DNA of 64,000 nucleotides from SAR116 cluster bacterium AG-325-I21 (GTDB lineage Bacteria; Pseudomonadota; Alphaproteobacteria; Puniceispirillales; Puniceispirillaceae), in contig QBYK01000003.1 in NCBI GenBank assembly GCA_003282865.1, forward strand, positions 1 to 64,000, given 5' to 3'. The notes beneath the pieces are model-generated. The model ran no database searches. It worked only from the letters and a program-made list of their open reading frames with translations, and was not told the origin of the DNA. A program made the translations under genes and the position numbers. This document shows, piece by piece, positions 33,320 through 61,376 of the stretch (positions within the stretch are counted from its first letter, which is position 1; every line of letters begins with the position of its first letter).

Positions 33320-33496
33320 CATGAAAGACGCTACTTTTTGCCCGTTGTTTTCAGCCAGCATAAAGCCTCAGCGAAGAATTGCCAGCCTATGGTAGTTTAG
33401 GTATGGCTGCTCCATCGTAATTTATCAGCTGTTGGACATCAGGCATGATGGCACGCTTTGAAGGGTTCGCGATATTGGCGTTGGTCCGGCTGATAT

Positions 33497-34637
33497 GTGA
33501 TGACTGATGTTGATGCAGTGGTAATTGGCGCTAGGGTGGCGGGGCTGATGTGTGCCAGCGAGGCAGGCAAGCTTGGCCGTCAGGTAATGCTGTTGGACCA
33601 TGCACGTAAGTTGGGTGAAAAAATTCGGATTTCTGGCGGTGGCCATGGTAACTTCACTAATCTTTATACCGCACCGAAAGCCTTTTTGTCGGCTAATCCG
33701 CATTTCTGTAAATCCGCGCTTTGTCAATATGACCAGCATGATTTCATCTCATTGGTCAGCAAGCACAAGATTGCCTATCATGAGAAGAAACTAAGCCAGC
33801 TATTTTGTGATCAATCAGCGCGAGGGTAGATTTCATGTTACGCATGATTACGGCATCGTAAAAGCTCCTTCACTCGTTATCGCAACAGGTGGCCTATCGA
33901 TTTCACAAATTGGAGCCACTGGTTTCGGTTACCAGATTGTACAGCAATTCAAAATAAATTATCTCAATCAAAGGCTCGGGCTAGTGCCGCTGGTTTTTGA
34001 CAACGGTCTTCTAATACGCTTTAAGAGATTGACGGGCCTCTCGCTTGATGCCGGTGTTGCTTGTGTCGGAAAAGCCTTTCAAGAGGGACTGTTACTTACC
34101 ATCTCGGGTTAAGCGGCCCGTCAACCCTACAAATCTCATCTTATTGGCGTGACACACATCCATTTTAAGTAGACCTCCCCCACCCCCAGGTCACGATATC
34201 AGTGTGCACTTAATAGTGGCAAGGCTATGCAGCCACGGCAAAATGTTTCAACCTGCCTTGCTGATATGTTGCCAAAACGCGTTGCCGCCGAATTGTGCGA
34301 TCTTGTCGGCGTTTTTGGACGGTTGGCTGATCGCAGTGATTTATACCTGCGTGAGCTTGGTCAACTGGTTAATGACTTGCAATTGACGCCCAATGGCACC
34401 GAGGGATATCGCACGGCCGAGGTTACGCTGGGTGGAGTAGATGCGAATGAATTGTCATCTGAAATAATGGAGGCAAAAGCTGTTCCCGGACTTTATTTCA
34501 TCGGCGAGGTGGTAGATATAACTGGCCATCTTGGGAGGTATATTTTCAATGGGCTTGGTCATCAGGTTTTGTTGCTAGGCATTACACTTGACATGTGCCT
34601 TAAGGTAATCTTGGTTAAACCGCTTTGTGCGTTATAG
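33497..34637 (+). pseudogene. BaiN/HI0933-family FAD-dependent oxidoreductase, degraded
   Basis: Homologous pieces lie in alternating frames: IRISGGGHGNFTN; SLVIATGGLSISQIGATGFGY; HLGLSGPSTLQISSYWRD (frame 2, interrupted by TAA); TPNGTEGYRTAEVTLGGVD...GLYFIGEVVDITG. Confidence 0.9.
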
Positions 34638-45779: not shown

Positions 45780-45953
45780 AACGGATATGCGCAGGTGTGT
45801 ACTGTAGCATGTTCTTAAAGAAAGGAAAAAAGTAAAAATTTAAAAATTGTAAATTATTTACAACTTTTGTTAATTGAGTAATCTTATATTTGACTTGAGT
45901 CGATTTTTTTATTTAAGCACGGGACCTTTTAAGGGCAGTGATAGGAAAATAGG

Positions 45954-47405
45954 ATGCAGGAAAAAATTCTTGTTGGACATAAACTACGTCGGTTTCGGAA
46001 GACGATTGGGTTATCACAAACCGCAATGGCAGATGCGCTAGAGATTAGCCCCTCGTATTTAAACCTCTTAGAACATAATCAACGTCCGCTTACCGTCGGT
46101 TTGTTGTTTCGCCTTGGAAATAGTTTTGACATTGATCTTAAGGACTTTGCTGAGGATGATGCGGCAAGCCTATCAACAGGAATGTCGGAGATTTTTGCTG
46201 ATCCATTGTTGGCTGATGAACAAGTGCCACGACGCGAGATACAAGATATGATCACTGCCGCCCCGGGAGCGGCACGCGGGCTCATCACGTTATTTCAAGC
46301 GTACCGCAAGGTGCGGGACGAACTGGAAGCTACCGCAGGTGATGGTGTTAGTATGCAGATGAGCAATCCAATTGAAAAGGTTCGCACAACCCTGCAAAAA
46401 GCCAATAACTATTTTGCGGTTCTGGAGGATGCTGCTGATGAGTTGCGCAGCGCAGCCAAAATTGTACCGGTTAACGATTTTGGCCTGACGGGCGATAATA
46501 CGCTTATAAGTTTAGCCGCTTATGTAACTGAAACGCTCGGTCTTCGAGTACGTATAATGCCTGTTTAGGTTATGCAAAATCAGCTTCGACGCTATGATCT
46601 GCATCGTCGCGAAATATTAATCAGTGAGGCGCTGCTTGGCTCGCAAAGGCAATTTCATCTTTTGATCCAAATAGCTTTGCTTAGCCAACATACGGCGCTG
46701 GACAAAATTTGTGAAGATTATGCAGCGCACGATTTACAAACAAAATCATTGTTAAAAATCACTCTTGCCGGCTATTTTGCTGGCGCGGTAATGATGCCAT
46801 ATTCGGCATTTTTGGATTCCGCCAAGAGTCTAAAATATGATCTTGATTTATTAGGACGCCGGTTTGGCTGTAGCTTTGAACAAGTGTGCCATCGCTTAAC
46901 AACATTGAATGCGCCAAATATGCGCGGCATTCCCTTTTTTTTCATTCGTGTTGATGATGCAGGTAATATTTCCAAACGCCTTGCTGCCGCCGGAATGCAA
47001 TTCGCAACAAATGTTGGAGCCTGTTCAAAATGGACCATGCATAAGGCATTTCGTACGCCGGAAAAAATACTTACACAAGCTGCAGAACTGCCGAATGGTC
47101 AAAAATATTTTATGCTGGCGCGTACTGCTCCACCTTTGTGGTCACCCAGCTTGGCGCAGTCCCCTGAGTTTGCAGTAACACTCGGCTGCGAGTTGCACCA
47201 TGCGCGAGACATGATTTATGCTGATCAAATCGACGTTTCCAAAACTGCCCGGTTGGATGCAATTGGCGTGGGCTGCTCGGTCTGTGAGCGGATGGATTGC
47301 ACGCAACGTGCGCACCCACCAATTGGACATGAATTGCGTTTTGACGGTCCTACGCGCCGCATCGGGTTATACGATCTTGGAAACAAGGTAAATATCAATA
47401 AATAA
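45954..47405 (+). pseudogene. XRE/ScfR-type (DUF2083, ImmA/IrrE-like) transcriptional regulator interrupted by an in-frame TAG
   Basis: 45954..46568 (HTH: LRRFRKTIGLSQTAMADALEISPSYLNLLEHNQRPLT) and 46572..47405 (QVCHRLTTLNAPNMRGIPFFFIRVDDAGNISKR) share a frame and are separated by one TAG at 46566-46568. May be a functional split or readthrough rather than a true pseudogene. Confidence 0.75.
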
Positions 47406-60837: not shown

Positions 60838-61075
60838 CTACTTTTCTATTATAAACGAACCTATCGCGAGAATATCTATTCCCGACCCATGAAAGCATCG
60901 AATAGTTTCTTTCGGGCTCATAACAATTGGTTCACCTTGAATATTAAATGAAGTATTTACGATTATTGGGTGCCCTGTAAGTTTCTCAAATTCATCAAGT
61001 AAAAACCAATAAAGGTTATTAACCTCTTTTTCTACGGTTTGTGGTCTTGCTGTTCCATTGATGATAAATCCTCAA
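60838..61075 (-). pseudogene. 3' remnant of a carbamoyltransferase (NodU/CmcH-type)
   Basis: The minus strand reads NGTARPQTVEKEVNNLYWFLLDEFEKLTGHPIIVNTSFNIQGEPIVMSPKETIRCFHGSGIDILAIGSFIIEK-stop, the C-terminal carbamoyltransferase signature (NTSFN..GEPIV). The rest of the gene is absent. Confidence 0.85.
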
Positions 61076-61376
61076 CTGGACTTGCTGCGAGCCTTGCGGC
61101 AGCGGCGGCACTGACATTTAGAAACCCTCATGTCTATCTCGATACAGTAGTGCTTATCGGCATTATTTTTTTACAATTTAGTAGTTTGGATAAACTAGCG
61201 TTCGCAGCAGGAGCAACAACTACCAGTCTGGTATTTTTTGCAGCGCTTGGTTTTAGCGGTTACTTACTGTCAGGCATGATTTGCAAGCCGCGTGCATGGC
61301 CGATATAAATGGTGGTATTGCGGTTATAATGTTCATACCGGCTGCTTCTATGTTGCGGGCAGGCGACTGGTTTTAA
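61070..61376 (+). pseudogene. 3' remnant of a LysE/ArgO-family exporter, frameshifted
   Basis: ALTFRNPHVYLDTVVLIGIIFLQFSSLDKLAFAAGATTTSLVFFAALGFSGYLLSGMICKPRAWPI-stop; the adjacent frame continues DINGGIAVIMFIPAASMLRAGDWF-stop. Confidence 0.85.

Follow-up and report, generated by a model that had tools for sequence, protein, structure and literature searches.

A single in-frame TAG, probably a young nonsense mutation, interrupts an ScfR/IsaR-type regulator gene in a SAR116 genome

The frame at positions 45954–47405 (+ strand) of the window, i.e., the whole 64,000-nucleotide stretch analyzed here, comprises 483 codons and is open except for a single in-frame TAG at 46566–46568, where the codons read CGT ATA ATG CCT GTT TAG GTT ATG CAA. 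The N-terminal half (45954–46568, + strand; 204 aa plus TAG) encodes an XRE-type helix-turn-helix (HTH; residues 11–64, HTH_3 4.3e-08), linker helices, and the helix and first beta-strand of an IrrE-like domain. The C-terminal half (46572–47405, + strand; 277 aa plus TAA) encodes the remaining IrrE-like domain (Peptidase_M78, 5.2e-16) and an ScfRs domain (3.6e-57). A preliminary description made from the sequence had reported two same-frame ORFs parted by one TAG, with exactly the codons that we read. In relatives the two pieces are one unbroken protein from end to end, at 86–92% identity over residues 1–483 in the close clade. Annotation should treat the two ORFs as one interrupted gene. The host genome (G000) is a draft SAR116 (Puniceispirillaceae) assembly (2.16 Mb, 122 contigs, 79.7% complete), and among named genomes it is closest to those of SAR116 / Candidatus Puniceispirillum.

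Profile searches matched the HTH, IrrE-like Peptidase_M78, and ScfRs domains in that order, which identifies the encoded product as an ScfR/IsaR regulator and bears out the family and domain order proposed earlier; judged from these matches, the window gene is by descent a broken member of the ScfR/IsaR family. The ScfRs domain (PF09856) scored 193 bits vs. a curated cut-off of 24. The HTH and Peptidase_M78 segments are encoded in order, but one polypeptide with both is a feature of the intact orthologues and not of the window copy, in which the TAG lies inside the IrrE-like domain. The predicted role of the family member is the sensing of short-chain fatty-acyl-CoA, and all four predicted 4Fe-4S ligand cysteines (the GAF-like Cys plus C-x2-C-x4-C) are encoded in the window copy. 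A second ScfR paralogue, intact, is located on contig C18 of the host genome.

Among proteins of solved structure, the best relative is Mycobacterium tuberculosis PrpR (MccR; PDB 6CZ6, 6CYY, 6CYJ, and 6D2S), another member of the ScfR/IsaR family. The intact orthologue aligns with it over the sensor and C-terminal region (E = 5.8e-73), and the two share the order HTH, domain III/IrrE-like, GAF-like, C-x2-C-x4-C. Ligands of the PrpR 4Fe-4S cluster are Cys363 and 447-C-x2-C-x4-C-455 (PMC6765138); all four are retained in the window gene. PrpR differs at its acyl-selecting Phe155, which aligns with Ile140 in the window gene, where most close relatives have Val (PDB chain numbering derived from the Cys positions). 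No prp or methylcitrate genes were recognized adjoining the window gene.

The earlier “RamB-type” label is imprecise. Of the NCBIfam models, RamB (Corynebacterium; Paracoccus class 2) scores best with either half and with the two paralogues of the host genome, but the scores against this equivalog model (NF038139, curated cut-off 700) are far below the cut-off, at 403.5 bits for the intact orthologue and 117.5 and 256.9 for the window halves, and the ligand-selecting residue of RamB is His, not Ile/Val. The Rhodobacter sphaeroides propionyl-CoA carboxylase regulator PccR is likewise an alphaproteobacterial ScfR; its ligand-selecting residue is aromatic (Trp; PMC6765138), unlike that of the window gene. 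With Ile or Val at this site, the gene cannot be assigned the specificity of RamB (His) or that of PccR/MccR (aromatic). The host genome contains methylmalonyl-CoA mutase genes, and the isocitrate-lyase family gave only short partial matches in the ~80% of the genome covered.

The location of the stop within the fold calls for one correction to the preliminary description, which had the TAG part the HTH from the C-terminal domain. In contrast to PrpR, the window gene is broken, and the stop aligns near PrpR residue 211, inside domain III (153–324); the Pfam Peptidase_M78 match in the second half begins at profile position 17. In the structure predicted for the sister protein (mean pLDDT 78), residue 205 follows a strand at 198–202 and precedes a hairpin at 212–224. 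Alignment and model thus place the predicted cut inside the IrrE-like domain, splitting it and its three-stranded sheet after the first beta-strand. The N-terminal piece keeps the acyl-CoA-selecting residue, whereas the Fe-S ligands lie on the C-terminal piece.

The nearest sister is AG-390-P06 (G006, gene L033), which has 89% DNA identity across the gene, and the two copies pair with full support in the tree. Orthologues in other genomes of the genus (one genome per species) showed no interruption at the stop position in any that was read. The ancestral codon is Glu, GAG in most close relatives and GAA in the nearest sister, in line with the GAG/CAG that had been expected; the RVLPV-x-VM sequence ascribed to homologues at this spot also occurs literally, in L040–L042. 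Given GAG in close relatives, one G>T change is enough to produce TAG. Beyond the close clade the residue is Lys, Asp, Ser, His, or Asn, and the position is tolerant of substitution. With all orthologues examined uninterrupted, Glu shared by the close clade, and the residue variable at greater distance, one base change explains the stop. The orthologue was not found in G010, G011, and G015 (94–99% complete), each of which has another ScfR copy; as these are draft genomes, its absence hints only weakly at dispensability. Viral contigs scanned for the exact sequence pattern around the stop gave no match.

Divergence between the window and sister copies amounts to 14 nonsynonymous and 56 synonymous changes in the N-terminal half, and to 24 and 52, respectively, in the C-terminal half. 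Codon models showed no shift in omega for the N-terminal half, for which neutrality was rejected on the window branch. For the C-terminal half, omega was ~0.19 on the window branch and 0.11 on the sister branch vs. 0.039 elsewhere, and a single ratio for all branches was rejected in favor of a model in which the pair has one ratio in common (2 x delta lnL ~21). The two branches are inseparable from each other (2 x delta lnL ~0.3, pooled vs. separate), and the profile for the window branch is wide (~0.06 to 1). Because the excess is common to the intact sister, it is not attributable to the stop; taken with the motif change and the missing promoter box described below, these ratios hint that the C-terminal half had relaxed slightly, with the loosening preceding the stop. 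In addition, a motif that is invariant in the close clade, HGGTCP, reads NVGACS in the window copy alone (residues 353–358; 47010–47027, + strand). The cluster-ligand Cys357 is retained there, and three of the four changes (N, A, and S) occur in other family members, while Val354 was unseen elsewhere in the set.

Upstream of most orthologues the sequence TTGTAAA-N3-TTTAC is conserved. This promoter box is intact in the window copy as part of a TTGTAAA-N3-TTTACAA palindrome (45847–45863, + strand), a candidate autoregulatory site; a further TTTACA box found in many orthologues is absent from both window and sister. When the palindrome was used to look for target genes across the genome, the gene's own promoter was the sole TTGTAAA-N3-TTTACAA site, with a near match on contig C1 within a glnD-like gene (identified by reading the translation). 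The sequences preceding the methylmalonyl-CoA mutase genes showed no paired boxes.

We surveyed in-frame stops by comparing ~576 kb of the host assembly with the complete genome G004 (2.07 Mb), covering ~299 genes and 102,616 aligned residues. TAG is an ordinary stop in this organism, ending 82 of the 247 genes whose ends were compared. Well-flanked in-frame stops were confined to the window gene and one already truncated ABC-transporter gene, and the window gene was the only well-conserved full-length gene with such a stop (1 in ~299). The reverse comparison gave zero such stops in 294 genes. Changes of frame were found in two remnants within the window, plus a weak candidate on contig C2. 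One remnant (33464–34585, + strand) is an HI0933-like FAD-binding oxidoreductase pseudogene with in-frame stops at 34110 and 34170 and frame changes near 33820 and 34545; the gene is intact in G006 and G004. The other (61045–61373, + strand) matches residues 108–213 of a 214-aa ORF of G004, with a frame change at ~61305, and its counterpart in G006 is also shortened. The rarity of stops and the confinement of frame changes to remnants argue that the assembly is not error-ridden overall; on the same sequence comparisons, the host genome carries true pseudogenes. No tRNA with a CUA anticodon is present among those identified in the ~80% of the genome covered. A weak tRNA-SeC candidate with a UCA anticodon (L082, G000:C37:8558–8648) scored 28.0 bits vs. 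an Rfam cut-off of 29.

The preliminary description offered a nonsense mutation, readthrough, a sequencing error, or a two-peptide version, which we judge to be the right set of alternatives. We consider it likely that a genuine young nonsense mutation inactivated an ScfR/IsaR-type acyl-CoA-responsive regulator in this SAR116 lineage, and we infer both that the cell truly carries this base and that the regulator no longer works. One base change would have turned a Glu codon into TAG, so that translation would halt at residue 204 and yield an HTH-bearing fragment unable to form the acyl-CoA/Fe-S sensor domain, in a regulator that may already have been under somewhat looser constraint in the window lineage and its sister. 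That looser constraint, together with the lack of a visible copy in some species of the genus, suggests that loss of the regulator is probably tolerated. Ordinary nonsense alleles and young pseudogenes present the same picture: a lone stop breaking a frame that is open elsewhere, orthologues that are intact, and mild relaxation. Most likely, then, the locus is neither a new kind of split gene nor a recoded gene. If the mutation is real, this would be another marine alphaproteobacterium in which one mutation has removed a regulator of carbon metabolism and a second ScfR paralogue has been retained.

A serious but less likely alternative is that the TAG is a G>T artefact introduced during amplification, sequencing, or consensus calling, and that the gene is intact in the cell. 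The draft state of the assembly, the otherwise intact frame with all cluster cysteines present, and the mostly synonymous divergence from the sister are consistent with such a base error. The survey enters on both sides, as a stop in a single well-conserved full-length gene suits a rare error or a rare mutation equally, whereas the great rarity of stops in the other well-conserved genes and the restriction of frame changes to evident remnants speak against an error. The private changes of the window copy in the conserved HGGTCP motif also favor a real mutation over an artefact.

Termination at the TAG with restart at ATG 46572 is improbable as a functional arrangement; it would produce two peptides, one with the HTH and one with the sensor, which may associate. 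Coupled reinitiation in E. coli was lowered by only 5 to 70% at a gap of +2 nt, varying between gene pairs, and by 40–80% at +14 nt (PMC10666635). The gap here is just +3 nt with the ATG in place, which is short enough for some reinitiation, so some of the C-terminal peptide may be produced. That half is also still largely constrained, but its constraint fits a young stop or an error equally well. Nothing was gained for restarting, since ATG 46572 is the conserved internal Met207, present in all intact relatives compared, and none of the other genomes examined has the split form. Moreover, the cut divides the beta-sheet of the IrrE-like domain and puts the PrpR Phe155 equivalent and the cluster cysteines on different pieces. 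A C-terminal peptide lacking the HTH, its own first strand, and the ligand-selecting residue is unlikely to be part of a working two-part regulator. A split ScfR of two co-translated peptides, in which the acyl-CoA sensor is no longer physically tied to the DNA-binding part, is slightly more improbable still, and a working two-peptide form would be surprising.

Amber readthrough or recoding, in which an amino acid would be inserted at the TAG to make the full-length protein, has in its favor only a frame open on both sides and was rejected as extremely improbable, since TAG is an ordinary terminator here, no CUA-anticodon tRNA was found in the part of the genome covered (the weak tRNA-SeC candidate would read TGA), and the in-frame TAG is not conserved at the same position in relatives.

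The truncated ABC-transporter gene encountered in the stop survey (L122, G000:C7:4162–4788) encodes a BPD-type permease that has lost its 5′ part and has a TAG at C7:4384, where G004 has Gln. A DNA-level check of the stops on this contig returned no match. Near L122, a fragment of another gene contains an in-frame TGA at C7:317 and aligns with no more than residues 129–206 of its 401-residue relative; this part of C7 is a second decaying region.
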